IMG/VR virus record: IMGVR_UViG_3300034122_001762
Span: 1 to 22,054 of that record
Source of the DNA: a virus
Length of the DNA stretch: 22,054 nt
Direction: 5' to 3' (one strand)
How positions within the stretch are numbered: position 1 is the first letter of the stretch; each line of letters opens with the position of its first letter. This document shows positions 11,203 through 17,407 of the stretch, piece after piece. Position numbers and translations under genes: made by a program. Below the pieces are notes generated by a model. It saw only the letters and a program-made list of their open reading frames with translations, was not told the DNA's origin and did no database searches.

Positions 11203-12536
11203 GCCGTTGCCCTTTCCTTCAAATCACGCACCGCCTTCAGCAGCGCCCGTTGCACATCCCCTTTGGCCGCCAGAACGGCCATGATCTTTTCGTCCACCGT
11301 GCCCGTAGCCACAAGGTGGTGGACCGTCACCTGATTCGCCTGCCCGCTGCGGTGCAGCCGGGCATTGGCCTGCTCGTACAGGTCCAGGCTGAACGGCAGC
11401 GCAAACCAGACCGCCACCGACCCGCCGACCTGCAACCCATCCACGCCGTGGCCACCGGATGCCGGATGCATCAGCAGCAAGTCAATCCGCCCGGCCTGCC
11501 ACGCACGCAGGGACCTCTCCCCGTCGAACACCACCGCCTGCGGGAACCGCTTCTTTATCCGGTCCTGATCGTGCACGTAGGCCGTGAAGCACAACACTGG
11601 CTCGCCCTGCTCGACGATCTCCTCCAGTGCATCCAGCTTTGCCTCGTGAATCTCCTCCACGCCGCCGGCGTCGGTGTAGACCGCCCCGTTGGCCATCTGC
11701 GCCAGCTTGCCGGCCAGCACCGCCGCGTTGACCGCCGTGACGTTGGCCGTGGCGAGGTTGCGCTCGAGGTCCCGGTACGGCGTCATGTCGAAGCTCACCT
11801 GCACGACGTTGTCGATCCGCGGCGGCAGCTGCACGCCGCTCTCCACGCTCAGCATCACGTCAGCCACCGCCTCGTAGATCTCCTCCTTGGCCCCGGGCCG
11901 CAGCTTCCACGTGTAGACCACCTGTCCGTTCCTCTTGTCCGGCGTGAACCACCGGTCCCGGTACTTGGTGATCCCCGTGCCCAGGCGCTGCCCCTGGTCC
12001 AGGATGCTGACCTGCGGCCACAGTTCCAGCAGGCTGTTGGGTGCCGGCGTGCCGGTCAGGATGAACAGCTTGCGGATGGCCTTGCGGACCTTCTTCAGCG
12101 CCTTCCAGGCCTGGGAGCCCCGATCCTTGAAGCCCCTGTTCTCGTCGATCACGACGCACTCAAAGGGCCAGGGCTCGCCGCTGCGCTCGACCCACTCCGT
12201 CAACCACACGAAGTTCTCGCGGTTGATCACGTAGATGTCCGCCTCGGTGGCCAGGGCCTCGAATCGCTGCCCGGCCTTGCCCACGACGCGTGACACCCTC
12301 AGGTGCCGAAGGTGGTCCCACTTCTGCACCTCCGCGTGCCACACAAGCTCCGCCACACGCTTAGGCGCCACGATCAACGTCTTACAGACCTCGAACCGGT
12401 CGTACGTCAGCTCCTCGATTGCCGTCAGCGTGGCCACCGTCTTGCCTGCCCCCATGCGTAGCGCCAGCAGCTGGTACGGCTGCTCCACCATCCGGCGGAT
12501 CGCCTCCTCCTGGTACGGTCTAGGCGAAAAGCGCAT
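11199..12536 (-). CDS. SNF2-family DEAD/DEAH-like helicase
   Basis: This 445-residue protein is a superfamily 2 ATP-dependent translocase. Motifs in order are RPYQ near residue 6, Walker A MGAGKT (28-33), LIVAPKR (54-60), the DExx box VIDENR (129-134), LTGTPAPNSLLELWP (160-174), then GGHGVDGLQVG and QANARLHRSGQ (motif VI) near the end. The order and length match phage SNF2 helicases found beside a VRR-NUC gene in replication modules. The start ATG 12534-12536 is chosen because it begins right before the Q-motif region; the frame is open 129 codons further, but that extension is Arg/Ser-rich shadow of the VRR-NUC gene. It overlaps the VRR-NUC end by 17 bases. The DENR box departs from the usual DEAH/DESH. 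Confidence 0.9.
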   Translation of the reverse strand: MRFSPRPYQEEAIRRMVEQPYQLLALRMGAGKTVATLTAIEELTYDRFEVCKTLIVAPKRVAELVWHAEVQKWDHLRHLRVSRVVGKAGQRFEALATEADIYVINRENFVWLTEWVERSGEPWPFECVVIDENRGFKDRGSQAWKALKKVRKAIRKLFILTGTPAPNSLLELWPQVSILDQGQRLGTGITKYRDRWFTPDKRNGQVVYTWKLRPGAKEEIYEAVADVMLSVESGVQLPPRIDNVVQVSFDMTPYRDLERNLATANVTAVNAAVLAGKLAQMANGAVYTDAGGVEEIHEAKLDALEEIVEQGEPVLCFTAYVHDQDRIKKRFPQAVVFDGERSLRAWQAGRIDLLLMHPASGGHGVDGLQVGGSVAVWFALPFSLDLYEQANARLHRSGQANQVTVHHLVATGTVDEKIMAVLAAKGDVQRALLKAVRDLKERATA

Positions 12537-12786
12537 CGCACGCCTCCATCGAATCCACGACGTGCACCTCGGCACCCAGGCTCTGCAGGATCCCGATGAC
12601 CCGGTCCTGCAGCGCCGTAGTCGTCTTGCCCGGCGCCTTGAGCTCCACGAAGAAGATCCTGCCGCCCGGCAGGAACACGATCCGGTCCGGCACCCCCGAC
12701 ATAGACGGCGCCACCCACTTGATCGCAAGTCCTCCTGCTGATCGCGCTCGCGCCACGAGCCGCTGTTCAATTCGCCGTTCAAGCAT
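12520..12786 (-). CDS. VRR-NUC domain nuclease
   Basis: This 88-residue, single-domain member of the PD-(D/E)xK nuclease superfamily carries GVPDR at 31-35 (catalytic Asp34), VELK at 47-50 (Glu48 and Lys50) and LQ at 59-60 (Gln60). That is the complete VRR-NUC signature. Stand-alone phage VRR-NUC proteins of this size cut Holliday junction-like structures and usually sit next to an SNF2 helicase, as here. I start at ATG 12784-12786 because the family begins about 20 residues before GGLAIKWV. A TTG start 25 codons upstream is open but poorly supported. The upstream ribosome-binding site is only a GGCGGG-type sequence. Confidence 0.88.
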   Translation of the reverse strand: MLERRIEQRLVARARSAGGLAIKWVAPSMSGVPDRIVFLPGGRIFFVELKAPGKTTTALQDRVIGILQSLGAEVHVVDSMEACDALFA

Positions 12787-13048
12787 CCCAGCAACCCGCC
12801 TTTCTGCCTCCAGGGGCCTGCAGCCCGCGACAAACCGACATGCAAAATAGTGCTGTGACAAGGTGACGAGACAAGTGGGGTTTTGGACGCCCCATACGCG
12901 AGTGCGTTTTTTCTGTAGCGCATCGCACTGCTCGCATGTGTGTGCGACCTACATACTTGTCACAACTCGTCACACAGAGGCATTTACAGAGGGAAAAGAG
13001 CTGTGACGAGTGCTGTGACGAGTTGTGTGACAAGAGCCGCTTAGCCAT
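12779..13048 (-). CDS. Doubtful 89-aa frame bridging primase and VRR-NUC genes
   Basis: An open frame starts at ATG 13046-13048, seven bases after a GGAG that overlaps the primase stop codon. It runs to a stop overlapping the VRR-NUC start by eight bases. The spacing is what a coupled gene would show. Against it, the composition is odd (Ser/His/Arg/Cys-rich; LLSHNSSQHSSQLFSLCKC), and much of it is encoded by the repeat cluster described separately. I list it so the reader knows it exists; a non-coding repeat region is at least as likely. Confidence 0.28.
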   Translation of the reverse strand: MAKRLLSHNSSQHSSQLFSLCKCLCVTSCDKYVGRTHMRAVRCATEKTHSRMGRPKPHLSRHLVTALFCMSVCRGLQAPGGRKAGCWDA

Positions 13049-13127
13049 CTCGTCACTCCAAAAAGTCCAACTCGACCTCGCTGCGCGCGTTTTCCAAGTG
13101 CGCGATCGCAGCGTCTTCTGTGACAAG
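12853..13127. repeat. Iteron-like cluster of nine CTGTGACRAG motifs
   Basis: Nine copies of a CTGTGAC(A/G)AG-like decamer lie in 275 bases. Forward copies are at 12853-12862, 12862-12870 (partial), 13001-13010, 13013-13022, 13025-13034 and 13118-13127. Reverse copies are at 12956-12965, 12966-12975 and 13049-13058. Reverse pair 12956-12975 and forward pair 13013-13034 form a near-perfect 20-base inverted repeat with about 37 bases between arms. The last copy lies within the 3' end of the primase gene and one overlaps its stop codon. The cluster sits between primase-helicase and VRR-NUC genes. This arrangement resembles iterons of a replication origin or a cluster of regulator sites; function is inference. 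Confidence 0.72.
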
Positions 13128-15500
13128 ACAGTCCTGGCGGCCCCACACTCGGCACACTTTGCCCTTGTATCGGCGCCTGCACAGGAAGCGGTACCCGAGC
13201 CGCGTCAGCAGCGTATTGACCCTGGTAGTCGACGGCTGATCGGCTCCGGCCGACACCATCGCGCTCACCAGATGGCTTGAGCTGAGCACCTCTTTGGTGA
13301 CGCCCTCGGCCCCGCGTTCGATCAGCTCTTCGGCGAGGAGCTCGAGGTCGCTCTTGCTCATCTCGACCACCGTTCGCTTGACCTCGGTGTCCGGCGCGCG
13401 GCCGTTGGCGTCGAACTCCGGGTGCAGCTCGTACTCGAGCAACCACTTGCGGATCGCCCCTGGCCGAGCGTGGATCGCGTCGAACAGCCGCGTGAAGTAG
13501 CCGTCCTGGGTGAGCCGCCGCGCGTCGAGCGTCGTCAGCTGCGAGCTCAGGAACATGTACCGGCGATCGCCCTCGTCAACGGGAGCTCCGTCCAGGAAGT
13601 TCGAGAAGATGATGTAGTTGCTGACGTTGGGCGCCGTGTACGACGCCTTGCCCTTGGGGTGGATCTCGATCTGGCTGTTCGTGATGAAGGTCTTGATCCG
13701 GTTCATGATGTCGTACCGGTTGTGCCCGTGCTGCTTCATCTCCTCGATGGCCACCAGTGCGTAGCCCACCGCCCAGTCCGTGAAGTTGGACTCGAGCGTC
13801 GAGCCGTTCAGGGACCGCACGTTCTGCCCGCCCATGGCCACGGCCACCAGCTCACTGAAGAACGACTTGCCGTCGCCCGGCACGCCGTGCACGTACGGCG
13901 CCCAGCGGATCTTCACGCCCGGGTGCTGCACGTTCCAGGCGATCCAGCTCACCAGCAGCGCCCGCTCGCGCTCGTCGGCCAAGTACGTGCGCAGGTGCAG
14001 CTCCACCCGCTCGATGGCCTCCAGGTCCTCGGCCGAGTACGTCTGCGGCACCGCCGGCACGCTCTCCGGCCTGTACAGGTTCACCCACTGCCGGCCGAAC
14101 ATCTCGAACGTGACGCTCGCCCTCGGCATGTACGCCTTGTGCGCCACCACCGGCATGCCCCACATCTCCACCGCCCACTGGTCGGCGCGTTCGCGGTTGC
14201 CTTTCTGGTCCCAGGGCATGTAGCGGTTGAACATCGAACGAAAACCCTGGCTGGTGACTTCCTGCTTGGTCTCGGTGTTGAAGAACTTGTCGCCCTCCGT
14301 CACGTAGACCCACGGCTTGGCCCAGTCAGGCATCGGCGTGCCGCTGCCTGCGGCCACCGCACCACCCCTGGAGCGCACCCAGCCGCGGCAGGTGGCGATC
14401 GGCAACTTCACGCCCAGATCCTTGGCGCGGGCCTGGATCGCTGCAGCCAGCAGCTCGCGCTCCATCTGCGACAAGGCTGCCGTGTTGGCGATGCGCGCAG
14501 CCACTTGATCCTGCAGATCGCGCGCGTCCGTGCAGTCGGCCACCTGCTGCTTGAACTGCTCGAGAAGGTCGGTGCGCTCCTCGCGCTTGGCCACCTCGCG
14601 CTTGTCCTTGGTGACCTTGAGCAGCGAGGCCAGCGTGAGCGCGCCACGCCCAGCAGCGCGCTGCCCCGAGAAGCTGCCCCACTTCTCCGCGCAGTAGCCC
14701 TCGACCCACTTGCCAGAGGCCGAGCTCCACTCGTCCCAGGCCTGCAGCCACTCCTCGTCGCCCTGGCCCTGGTGGTGCAACGCCTGCCCCACGCGCAGCC
14801 AGGAGTCGTAGCCCATGTCCGGGTCCAGATGCGGCAGCACCTCGGCCACCACCCGCTCGAGGTCCCAGCCCTCCAGCGGCTGGCGGAAGTTCGCCAGAGC
14901 GCGCTCGCCTTCGTCGCCTTCGAGCACCGCCTCGCTCAGCGTCTCGTCGAAGACCTGCCGAACGAGCCAGCCCAGGTCCTGCTGCACCACGGGCAGCGCG
15001 TCATGGCCGTTGATCTGGTGGCCGGTCACCGTGAAGTAGCGACCATCGCGGTACAGCTCGACGCCGACTTCCTTCTTCGTGCGCGAGCCGTCCAGGTTTG
15101 TTCGGGAAAACAGCTTGATGCCGGTGCCGCTGGGGCTCACCTCGGCGTAACCCTCCACGCGCTCGAGAACCTCGGTTGCCAGCTCGTTGAGCTCGCCTGT
15201 GCCCGGGTCGCGACAGTCGTCCAGGTCAATCCCCTGGACTTCTGAGCCGAGCACGTAGCCAATGCCGTCGTACCCGCCCATGACGTACTCATCCGCGACG
15301 TCGTCAAACGTCGTCCAGGTGGCGGAGTCCGTGGTGCTGGCCGCGGCACCCCCGATCTGCACAGGCAGCTTGGCCCAAACCGAGCCGCCCTTGGGCTTTT
15401 GGCGCTGCACGTACTTCCACAACACCCACCGCGGGTGGCCCTGGAGATCAGTGGGAATCGTCTCGAATCGAACAGGCAGTGAAGTGGGCTTGTCTGACAT
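13053..15500 (-). CDS. Primase-helicase (prim-pol-like N-terminus, PriCT-2, D5-like ATPase)
   Basis: This 815-residue multidomain replication protein has three recognisable parts. Residues about 10-185 resemble a bifunctional primase-polymerase (AEP) domain, with GIDLDDCRD at 90-98, SPSGTGIKLF at 122-131 and YRDGRYFTVTGH at 150-161. Residues about 205-290 fit PriCT-2 (LPHLDPDMGYDSWLRVGQAL, then WDEWSSASGKW). The C-terminal half is an SF3/D5-like helicase with Walker A GVPGDGKS at 539-546, Walker B ALVAIEEM at 581-588 and a sensor stretch YIIFSNFLDGAP at 629-640 (DUF5906 type). The start ATG (15498-15500) is preceded by a GGGGGCG-type ribosome-binding sequence. It would synthesise primers and unwind the fork. 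Its 3' end contains two of the iteron-like motifs. Confidence 0.9.
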   Translation of the reverse strand: MSDKPTSLPVRFETIPTDLQGHPRWVLWKYVQRQKPKGGSVWAKLPVQIGGAAASTTDSATWTTFDDVADEYVMGGYDGIGYVLGSEVQGIDLDDCRDPGTGELNELATEVLERVEGYAEVSPSGTGIKLFSRTNLDGSRTKKEVGVELYRDGRYFTVTGHQINGHDALPVVQQDLGWLVRQVFDETLSEAVLEGDEGERALANFRQPLEGWDLERVVAEVLPHLDPDMGYDSWLRVGQALHHQGQGDEEWLQAWDEWSSASGKWVEGYCAEKWGSFSGQRAAGRGALTLASLLKVTKDKREVAKREERTDLLEQFKQQVADCTDARDLQDQVAARIANTAALSQMERELLAAAIQARAKDLGVKLPIATCRGWVRSRGGAVAAGSGTPMPDWAKPWVYVTEGDKFFNTETKQEVTSQGFRSMFNRYMPWDQKGNRERADQWAVEMWGMPVVAHKAYMPRASVTFEMFGRQWVNLYRPESVPAVPQTYSAEDLEAIERVELHLRTYLADERERALLVSWIAWNVQHPGVKIRWAPYVHGVPGDGKSFFSELVAVAMGGQNVRSLNGSTLESNFTDWAVGYALVAIEEMKQHGHNRYDIMNRIKTFITNSQIEIHPKGKASYTAPNVSNYIIFSNFLDGAPVDEGDRRYMFLSSQLTTLDARRLTQDGYFTRLFDAIHARPGAIRKWLLEYELHPEFDANGRAPDTEVKRTVVEMSKSDLELLAEELIERGAEGVTKEVLSSSHLVSAMVSAGADQPSTTRVNTLLTRLGYRFLCRRRYKGKVCRVWGRQDCLVTEDAAIAHLENARSEVELDFLE

Positions 15501-15954: not shown

Positions 15955-16149
15955 TCAGTGAACACTTTCGTCGGCGGGCAAATGCCGCAGCAGGGCCCGC
16001 TCCACCTGGGACTTGATCGTGTCGACGCACGCGTTGGTGCACCTGAGCAGCACCCGCATCTCGCCATCGGGCGTGTCGATCACCAGCTCCTCGCCGTGTG
16101 CCAGCGACTTCATCGCTTCGATCGACAAGGCGAGGTGCAGTTCGGTCAC
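15955..16149 (-). CDS. Small unknown protein (64 aa)
   Basis: This 64-residue protein starts at GTG 16147-16149, which overlaps the stop of the Cro-like gene as GTGA, with GAGG eight bases upstream. The sequence (VTELHLALSIEAMKSLAHGE, then ELVIDTPDGEMRVLLRCT) suggests an alpha-beta fold with the last third helical. It has no recognised motif. Coupling to the Cro-like gene means it is made at the start of lytic transcription. The longer open frame to 16281 is Arg/Pro/Gly-rich shadow of the Cro-like gene. Confidence 0.65.
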   Translation of the reverse strand: MTELHLALSIEAMKSLAHGEELVIDTPDGEMRVLLRCTNACVDTIKSQVERALLRHLPADESVH

Positions 16150-16367
16150 TCCGCGGTCCTCAGCTCGGACCAGCGGACGTCCGGCCGCATCTGCTCCGCC
16201 CGCACGGCCACGCCGCGCTCGCGGGCGAGCCGCTCGAGGTCGGGCACCCGCTCGGCCGGGATCCGGTTCTTGCGGATCCACAGGCTGATGGCTTGGCTGC
16301 GGATGCCCAGCTGCCGCCCAAGGTAGGCGGGGCCGCCGAGTTCCCTGATTATTTCGCTCACGGTCAT
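16146..16367 (-). CDS. Cro-like regulator, YdaS family HTH
   Basis: This 73-residue HTH protein contains GGPAYLGRQLGIRSQAISLW (residues 11-30), then RIPAERVPDLERLARERG, and near the end MRPDVRW. That is the layout of YdaS/Cro-type repressors, which pair with CI in prophage switches. It is divergent from the CI-like gene and first in the leftward replication operon, as Cro is in lambda-like phages. No ribosome-binding site precedes the ATG (16365-16367). A TATCAT -10 at 16377-16382 (minus strand) would place the transcript start about 2-3 bases before the ATG, so the mRNA is probably leaderless. Confidence 0.82.
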   Translation of the reverse strand: MTVSEIIRELGGPAYLGRQLGIRSQAISLWIRKNRIPAERVPDLERLARERGVAVRAEQMRPDVRWSELRTAE

Positions 16368-16459
16368 ATAGGTCGCATGATAACGAAAGTATCAGAAAAG
16401 AGAAACAAAACCGATATCGGGTTGACCCTAGGGGTCAACACCAGTAATCTCTGCTTACT
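16368..16459. promoter_or_regulatory. Divergent switch region: paired promoters and three inverted repeats
   Basis: This 92-base AT-richer region lies between the Cro-like and CI-like genes. Rightward, TTGACC (16422-16427), a 17-base spacer and TAATCT (16445-16450) predict transcription beginning at or within a few bases of the repressor ATG. Leftward, TATCAT (16377-16382) with a weak TTTCTC (16400-16405) serves the Cro-like gene. Inverted repeats are TGATA-N7-TATCA (16378-16394), CCGATATCGG (16411-16420) and GTTGACCC-TAG-GGGTCAAC (16421-16439). The last covers the rightward -35, so a bound repressor would act directly on that promoter. Confidence 0.72.
16421..16439. promoter_or_regulatory. 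19-bp operator candidate over the repressor -35
   Basis: Two perfect 8-base arms, GTTGACCC and GGGTCAAC, surround a TAG centre. The left arm contains the TTGACC -35 of the repressor promoter. Size and symmetry suit a dimeric HTH protein. Confidence 0.65.
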
Positions 16460-17407
16460 ATGTCTGAAATACTCGCAAAGAAGATCTTCGAAGCACGGAA
16501 AGCAGCCGGGATGACGCAGGCCCAGCTTGCCGATCGCCTGGGGCTGACCCGAGGTGCAGTCACGCTGTGGGAATCGAGTAACCCGGAGACGCGTAGCAGC
16601 CCGTCCATTGCGATGCTGCGGAAGTTCAGCGAGACCGTTGGCGTGCCAATCTTTTGGTTGATTGATGAATCTCAAGGCAAGGACGACCTAGAGCTTGCTC
16701 GCCAGTTGTACCAAACGCCCGTGCCACAAGGGTTGTTGGGTTTGTCACCGGACACGAGCCGTGTAGGTCAGCAACAAGGAGTGGCGGGACTGCTCAGTCC
16801 ATCGCAACGCGAGCGTCGCGATGCCCTGCCGGAAGGGCTGCTCGGCCTTGTAAGGAACGAACCGTCAGCGGGCAAGCTCGTGGACAGCGGGGAAGGCCAG
16901 ATAGGAGGGGAGCGGGACATCTACGGGCAGGGAGAAACTGACGTTTCCAAAGAGGGCATTCAGCGCACCAGGATCACCTCTGCGGTGCGACTTGACCTTA
17001 GAAGCGATCACCCGCCAAGAATGGTTGAAAACTTTTGGCGTTCCGTTGAGTTCGAGGTGTGTTTACGACGCCCCGACCTTGAGCGGGCTTTCCACCCCAG
17101 TACCTCCGGGAAGATGCTACGGGCTACAGTCGACTTCCTTAGCGGAGAAAACGTTGCTGAGTTCTCCTACGTATCGGAGAAAGAAACCCTGTCTGAACTG
17201 TTTCGCCGCAAGATGGGTGTACTGCTGACGATCGAAACCGCGATAAAACGCCCAATGCGAAAGCATCTACTGATCTGGGCCCCGACGGAATCCTTGGCAT
17301 TCGAAGACCTGAGCGGCATCAGGGAGGCCGGTAGCTACCTAGGCGCCGAGGTACAGCTGTTCAAGCGGCCGAGCGAAGCCGCCGACTACCTCACCGAGCT
17401 CGCCTAA
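16460..17407 (+). CDS. CI-like phage repressor without an S24 peptidase domain
   Basis: This 315-residue protein has an N-terminal XRE-type HTH (residues about 6-66; GMTQAQLADRLGLTRGAVTL at 17-36, then SPSIAMLRKF) like CI repressors. Residues about 70-165 are a Gly/Pro/Gln-rich linker with repeated GLLGL-type segments. Residues about 170-315 form a folded domain (including VENFWRSVEFEVCLRRPDLE) that I do not recognise and that lacks the LexA/CI serine-lysine cleavage signature. The start ATG (16460) has no ribosome-binding site and sits about 10 bases from a -10, so the mRNA is probably leaderless, as for lambda cI. Codon usage and GC are lower than in its neighbours. It would maintain lysogeny; whether and how DNA damage inactivates it is unclear. 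Confidence 0.8.
   Translation: MSEILAKKIFEARKAAGMTQAQLADRLGLTRGAVTLWESSNPETRSSPSIAMLRKFSETVGVPIFWLIDESQGKDDLELARQLYQTPVPQGLLGLSPDTSRVGQQQGVAGLLSPSQRERRDALPEGLLGLVRNEPSAGKLVDSGEGQIGGERDIYGQGETDVSKEGIQRTRITSAVRLDLRSDHPPRMVENFWRSVEFEVCLRRPDLERAFHPSTSGKMLRATVDFLSGENVAEFSYVSEKETLSELFRRKMGVLLTIETAIKRPMRKHLLIWAPTESLAFEDLSGIREAGSYLGAEVQLFKRPSEAADYLTELA

Follow-up and report, generated by a model that had tools for sequence, protein, structure and literature searches.

A candidate iteron origin behind the primase-helicase gene of phages with an NrS-1-type PrimPol

The primase-helicase gene and the adjoining repeat cluster

The window, which is the whole stretch analyzed here, is a complete virus record of 22,054 bases. 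The genes around the gap of interest are on the minus strand. The primase-helicase gene (13053..15500) lies upstream, and a VRR-NUC nuclease gene (12520..12789; start codon ATG at 12789, placed from a ribosome-binding-like sequence) comes next after the repeat array, followed by a SNF2-type helicase gene. Genes for Cro/YdaS-like and CI-like proteins are found at 16146-17407. Because terminase genes are present, together with portal-like and capsid-like genes recognized by inspection, the window represents a phage rather than a satellite island such as a PICI.

The primase-helicase combines an NrS-1-type AEP PrimPol, a PriCT_2 helix bundle, a DUF5906 helicase of the SF3/D5-like type, and a C-terminal winged helix. 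Its homology to the NrS-1-type PrimPol extends over the AEP and helicase domains (7ola, E = 8e-23; 6k9a, E = 9e-13; 6k9e, E = 1.8e-12). In an AlphaFold2 model built with 35 relatives, the C-terminus is predicted to fold as a winged helix (helix, strand, helix, helix, and a two-strand wing; core pLDDT 88-91), with the recognition helix at residues ~756-768 and the wing at residues ~771-790. Based on this model, on Foldseek matches, and on covariation, we propose this part of the protein (residues 715-790; 13131..13358, minus strand) as the reader of the repeats. Primase, SF3 helicase, and C-terminal winged helix are thereby joined in one chain, as in proteins of the P4 alpha type. The Foldseek matches in the PDB are weak (best E = 0.0057) and include winged-helix regulators and an archaeal Orc1/Cdc6-origin complex; the C-termini of related phage primases were matched as well. 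The solved origin-binding domain of P4 alpha was found neither by profile search nor among the 50 Foldseek matches listed, and profile search gave no direct homology of the C-terminal domain to any solved origin-binding domain.

The PriCT_2 helix bundle (14622-14846; primase residues ~219-293) occurs as two allele types, HHQGQGDEEWLQAWDEW... and HHQFDGDDAAFELWDEL..., which alternate among the window and its close relatives (L009, L016, L018-L024, and L028-L031). Judged from the sequences, the template-reading domain seems to have undergone repeated module exchange.

Motif counts over the whole record place the repeats in the gap next to the primase gene. The octamer GTGACRAG has 10 copies in the 22,054 bases, nine of them inside 12855-13127, and all seven copies of the 9-mer TGTGACRAG are inside 12854-13127. 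For GTGACRAG the expectation is ~1.9 per whole record and 0.023 per 275 bases, and the Poisson probability of at least nine copies in 275 bases is 5e-21, which rises to ~1e-14 when all octamers and window placements are generously corrected for. The cluster reported in the initial annotation is therefore present as placed and far above chance, and the genome-wide count that it had proposed as a check finds the enrichment confined to this gap. The repeats are enriched at one place only, beside a putative initiator gene, as in iteron origins. The claim of nine decamers of the form CTGTGAC(A/G)AG holds in part: nine octamers are present, but the full decamer was found exactly four times (12853, 13001, 13013, and 13118). 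Cumulative GC skew, also proposed as a check, does not change direction at the gap and so lends no support, being uninformative in a fragment of 22 kb.

The array consists of several modules. Module A (13002..13034, plus strand) contains three direct TGTGACRAG copies at 13002, 13014, and 13026 with a spacing of 12, and module B (12956..12974, minus strand) has two oppositely oriented copies, at 12956 and 12966, with a spacing of 10. Module D (12854..12875, plus strand), located 65-85 bases ahead of the VRR-NUC start, comprises TGTGACAAG (12854), GTGACGAG (12863), and a degenerate GAGACAAG (12868). Two further copies extend over the end of the primase gene, as had been noted initially: GTGACGAG (13049..13056, minus strand) overlaps the stop codon (13053-13055), and CTGTGACAAG (13118..13127, plus strand) lies inside the coding end. 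The 20-base inverted repeat described at first does have the opposite orientation, but it is really made of two modules, CTTGTCACAACTCGTCACACAG (12956-12977) and CTGTGACGAGTTGTGTGACAAG (13013-13034), which pair with a 2-base offset because their copies are spaced by 10 and 12 bases, respectively. A spacer (12876..12955) separates modules B and D and has 54% GC, compared with 64% for the genome, which is a candidate melting region. It contains two elements on the minus strand, TCGCACACACATGCGA (12932..12947) and AAAAAACGCACTCGCGTATGGGG (12890..12912), the latter with an A-tract and a CACRYGYGTAT-like sequence.

Conserved layout and rewritten repeats among relatives

Primase scans covered 32 loci first and then many more distant loci; a scan with L057 as the query matched only L057 itself. 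The close set consists of 20 sequences, and an array is present in the gap behind the primase gene in all 20. The usual layout is A (three copies), B (two inverted copies), an AT-richer spacer, and D (two or three copies). Module A has three copies with a spacing of 12 just 3' of the primase stop codon, module B usually has two inverted copies with a spacing of 8-10, and module D lies ahead of the next gene. An AT-rich region immediately 3' of the putative initiator gene thus has a repeat set on each side (A/B and D), which is the arrangement of PICI-type origins. The spacer is AT-richer than its own locus in 24 of 24 loci examined. The spacer elements (GCACACATGCGA, and the A-tract with CACRYGYGTAT) are recognizable in most close relatives despite their differing repeats, and could be bound by a host factor or belong to the melting region.

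What differs between relatives is the sequence of the repeat, and the copies within a genome switch together. The classes in the close set are TGTGACRAG, GGTGACAAG, GGTGACAGA, CCTGACAAG, TGTGGGCAG, and AGTGGGACA. By locus, the repeat is TGTGACRAG in the window, GGTGACRAG in L009, L011-13, and L016-21, CGTGACAAC in modules A and D of L010, GGTGACAGA in L014 and L025, TGTGACAGG in L026, CCTGACAAG in L022-24, TGTGGGCAG in L027, AGTGGGACA in L028, L030, and L031, and TCTGGGCA in L029. A class-matched copy is also found in the primase coding tail of L009, L021, L023, L024, L025, and L026. The initial annotation had expected the motif itself to be kept in relatives; position and layout are indeed conserved, but the letters of the motif are rewritten. 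Module B differs from modules A and D of the same array in L010 (TGTGACAGG vs. CGTGACAAC), L027 (ATGTGGGTA vs. TGTGGGCAG), and L029.

Copy density in the gap region is 26- to 861-fold above the rest of each locus, and in 19 of the 20 close loci the de novo best-repeat score of the gap is higher than that of any of 40 shuffles, with a tie in L010. Compared with control windows of the same locus, the gap score stands out in most cases and is tied or lower in L009, L010, L028, L029, and L031. Short motifs are common, and such clustering could in principle arise by chance or composition and have no function. Given the corrected P of ~1e-14 and the arrays of differing sequence and the same layout in 20/20 close relatives, the probability of this explanation is negligible; the conservation of layout already refutes it.

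In distant relatives with this primase type, among them AH2/Nazgul, BPP-1, and a Chi-like phage, the repeats at the same place are different and unrelated. Phage AH2 and its metagenomic kin have 7-11 copies of AGGTCCGAAT, with no annotated gene after the array in AH2, and BcepNazgul has a degenerate repeat set. The array repeats of PCA1 and Psp6 are AGGTTCCAAG and GGTAACAAG, respectively. In the Salmonella phage HMD-P1 (L108, Chivirus), nine copies of AGGTTACA lie between +437 and +718, counted from the primase stop codon, and this array is a candidate for the origin of Chi-like phages. The HMD-P1 array (AGGTTACA/TTGTAACCT) surrounds an AT-rich stretch. The Bordetella phage BPP-1 (L206, NC_005357) has four copies of AACGAGGCAA in two inverted pairs (~26607-26713), ~460-570 bases behind the primase stop codon and directly ahead of an endonuclease gene; from its sequence and position, this array is a candidate BPP-1 origin. 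The inverted pairs surround a TTTCTCATACGTGTACATGAGAAA palindrome. Many distant relatives, including the L062-L082 group, have no array within 450 bp of the primase gene, and none was seen in the gap inspected in BcepC6B, which was reached via its nuclease.

The inverted orientation of modules A and B also raises the question of whether the functional element is a stem-loop, in which A and B would extrude a hairpin recognized by the replicase. Such an element was proposed for pRN1, where a stem-loop immediately after the AEP-SF3-winged-helix gene is required, and for the BPP-1-type phage BIP-1, for which a published analysis found no origin iterons (PMC4234260). The strand folds strongly in the window (z of -3.7 to -4.0), and the fold z is below -3 in five of the seven relatives tested. 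However, the spacing of 12 in A against 8-10 in B puts the stem arms out of register and makes them bulged, module D is outside the stem, and the array persists in L028, where the hairpin is weak (z of -1.2). Every copy, including those in D and in the coding region, changes together, which fits site binding better, and an array is present in BPP-1 in the very region for which no origin iterons had been reported (PMC4234260). In place of a conserved stem-loop without iterons, iterons are present and the hairpin arises from their inversion; we consider the stem-loop reading very unlikely.

Coupling of the repeats to the primase winged helix

The relationship between repeats and primase domains was assessed with partial Mantel tests on 20 repeat-primase pairs, controlling for residues 301-690, by which shared ancestry is only partly controlled. 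The repeat is correlated with the winged-helix domain (r = 0.49, p = 0.0005) and with the wing (r = 0.54, p = 0.001), and not with the helix bundle (r = -0.37, p = 1.0) or the AEP domain (r = 0.00, p = 0.46). The middle segment 390-510 correlates as well (r = 0.31, p = 0.0045). A blind scan with 15-residue windows peaks at 775-789 (wing), tied with 712-726 (domain start), in a numbering that is 4 too high because four residues precede the start codon. When the GTGAC/CTGAC clade is considered by itself, the whole winged-helix domain is not significantly correlated with the repeat (p = 0.26), and a correlation persists only between the wing and repeat positions 1-2 (r = 0.56, p = 0.004), as one of several such tests. 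The recognition helix shows no distance correlation with repeat positions 7-9 (r = 0.00). The helix bundle was rejected as the repeat reader because of its negative correlation. At the sequence level, the repeats are thus coupled to the winged-helix domain of the primase-helicase.

These results bear on the possibility that the PriCT_2 helix bundle reads the repeats as start sites for the primase on a single-stranded template, as in NrS-1 PrimPol. The window primase is related by sequence to that enzyme, which recognizes 5'-GTGA/GTGG on the template, and one of its best-used motifs, GTGA or GTGG (PMC8718748), is present in the majority of the repeats in the close family. However, repeat class follows neither the helix bundle nor the AEP domain (partial r of -0.37 and 0.00, respectively), and the two helix-bundle allele types cut across repeat classes. 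Conservation spans the full 8-9 bp, which is more than a site of 3-4 bases, and the CCTGACAAG, TCTGGGCA, AGGTCCGAAT, and AACGAGGCAA arrays contain no GTG, so that a GTG template site is not the conserved feature. We regard this explanation as very unlikely to account for the arrays, and template start sites could be a second use of the same repeats.

Comparisons of individual relatives point to particular parts of the winged helix. The window and L009 are 95% identical in the mid-helicase and 90-96% in neighboring proteins, compared with 45% in the wing; the recognition helix is nearly unchanged, and base 1 of the repeat is T in the window vs. G in L009, with the other repeat end the same. By sequence, the two constitute a near-minimal pair for the wing and repeat base 1. 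The helix bundle also differs (46% identity, flanked by parts with 90-95%), so this pair does not stand alone. Across the GTGAC/CTGAC set, G at base 1 is associated with Lys-Trp in the wing (L009, L011-14, L016, L018-21, and L025), and T or C with other wing residues (the window, L010, L026, and L022-24, in separate branches). L014, L025, and L026, whose repeats end in AG, share an Ala at the recognition-helix start, a link that rests on one residue in three sequences; a clade of these three is rejected (AU p = 0.0047). The AEP domain of L021 and L025 resembles that of the GTGGG clade (41-44% vs. 20% identity). These two are mosaic primases, with a GTGGG-clade AEP domain and the helicase, winged helix, and repeats of the GTGAC clade. 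The CI-like repressor (16460-17407 in the window) is only 34% identical in L009, compared with 90-96% for nearly all other proteins compared, and this divergence is, judged from sequence, an immunity-region swap.

The near identity of the remaining proteins is informative regarding other possible binders. The repeats might serve as an operator of the VRR-NUC and helicase genes for a Cro/YdaS-like, CI-like, or other phage regulator, since the array is ahead of a codirectional gene and the window encodes Cro-like and CI-like proteins; the initial annotation had likewise named the Cro-like protein or another regulator as a possible binder. Against this, the Cro-like protein is 91% identical in L009 despite the changed repeat and was not detected in several loci that have arrays. 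Furthermore, the downstream gene varies (VRR-NUC, HNH, or none, as annotated in AH2), and the primase is always upstream. An operator role of this kind is very improbable, and the primase may itself be autoregulated through the array. The array might also be a packaging region (cos/pac) bound by the small terminase, considering that the BcepNazgul array is within ~600 bp of an annotated cos site and that those of BPP-1 and Psp6 are near the small terminase gene. However, the terminase genes of the window are ~6 kb away, the small terminase candidate and TerL are 94 and 96% identical between the window and L009 despite the repeat change, and repeat class follows the primase winged helix. This makes a packaging site extremely unlikely.

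A candidate origin and its counterparts in known systems

We propose, with a probability of roughly 0.8, that the gap serves as an iteron origin of replication and that the primase-helicase itself binds it via its C-terminal winged helix, by analogy with SaPI/PICI, SCCmec Cch2, P4 alpha, and pRN1. The suggestion of a plausible origin or initiator site in the initial annotation is well supported by the conserved position and layout and by the covariation of the repeats with the primase winged helix. The primase-helicase would bind the 8-9 bp repeats through this domain, and copies in both orientations on the two sides of the AT-richer spacer would gather two helicase assemblies (oligomers), which would melt the spacer. 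The AEP primase domain would then start DNA on the exposed strands. The GTG present in many repeats may have a second role as a template start site for the primase, given that NrS-1 PrimPol uses GTGA/GTGG. We infer that the first repeat position(s) are read by the wing and the last by the start of the recognition helix; an alteration in either would have to be followed in every copy, and origin and reader would evolve together. With the layout kept while the repeat letters and the DNA-binding tip of the primase are rewritten together, the two appear to evolve as lock and key.

A broader reading is possible, and we put it forward with reservation. The NrS-1-type PrimPol-helicase phages may share an old layout in which the repeats and the wing/recognition helix were repeatedly rewritten together in a natural, partly readable, and fast-changing specificity code, probably driven by satellites, co-infecting phages, or origin-directed nucleases. 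The coordinated rewriting suggests that cross-recognition by parasites or by co-infecting relatives is selected against, and such selection was shown for PLE and its origin-directed nuclease (PMC8263062). If the proposed origin is real, a broad phage group would gain a testable origin, with candidate sites in AH2/Nazgul-like, Chi-like, and BPP-1 phages. There would also be dozens of natural initiator-origin pairs, and the window/L009 pair would allow DNA recognition by the winged helix to be read.

The closest counterparts are the origins of SaPI/PICI. There, an AT-rich region immediately 3' of the gene for the initiator-helicase Rep, including the Gram-negative Pri-Rep, has a set of short iterons on either side, an organization that the PICI authors considered unlike any other known bacterial replicon (PMC6092414). 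Origin specificity was assigned to the C-terminal domain of the initiator (PMC6092414; PMC7581432). Unlike these islands, the elements described here are Caudoviricetes phages with a fused NrS-1-type AEP PrimPol and DUF5906 helicase, and their arrays have the extra inverted module B and a spacer core common to most relatives. SCCmec Cch2 is likewise a D5-type SF3 helicase with AAGTG iterons downstream of its own gene, which are bound by its isolated C-terminal domain (PMC7581432). However, no primase is fused to Cch2, and its iterons number just three, whereas the window has ~8-10 copies in two orientations.

The alpha protein of the satellite phage P4 reads short type I iterons in ori and crr. 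Its chain combines primase, SF3 helicase, and a C-terminal winged helix, as does the window protein, and in alpha the winged helix binds the origin (PMC4234260, citing Yeo 2002). Its primase is of the bacterial type (Toprim), in contrast to the AEP primase of the window. The pRN1 ORF904 protein shares the AEP, SF3, and C-terminal winged-helix domains and an origin just behind its gene (PMC4234260), which was described as a stem-loop without iterons, unlike the repeat arrays of the window and BPP-1. The PrimPol of phage NrS-1 has homologous primase and helicase domains, and it has been described with two copies of an 8-nt template site (PMC7102993) rather than an iteron array. Covariation of origin repeats with the DNA-binding domain of the initiator between close relatives is also known from the swapping of ori and RepA_N in PLE and from geminivirus iterons (PMC8263062; PMC12548392), in which the initiators (RepA_N and HUH Rep, respectively) are unrelated to that of the window. 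The principle is therefore already known; as far as we searched the open literature, what is new is the occurrence of arrays of such organization in NrS-1-type PrimPol phages, the candidate origins for several named phages, and the coupled rewriting of repeat and wing.
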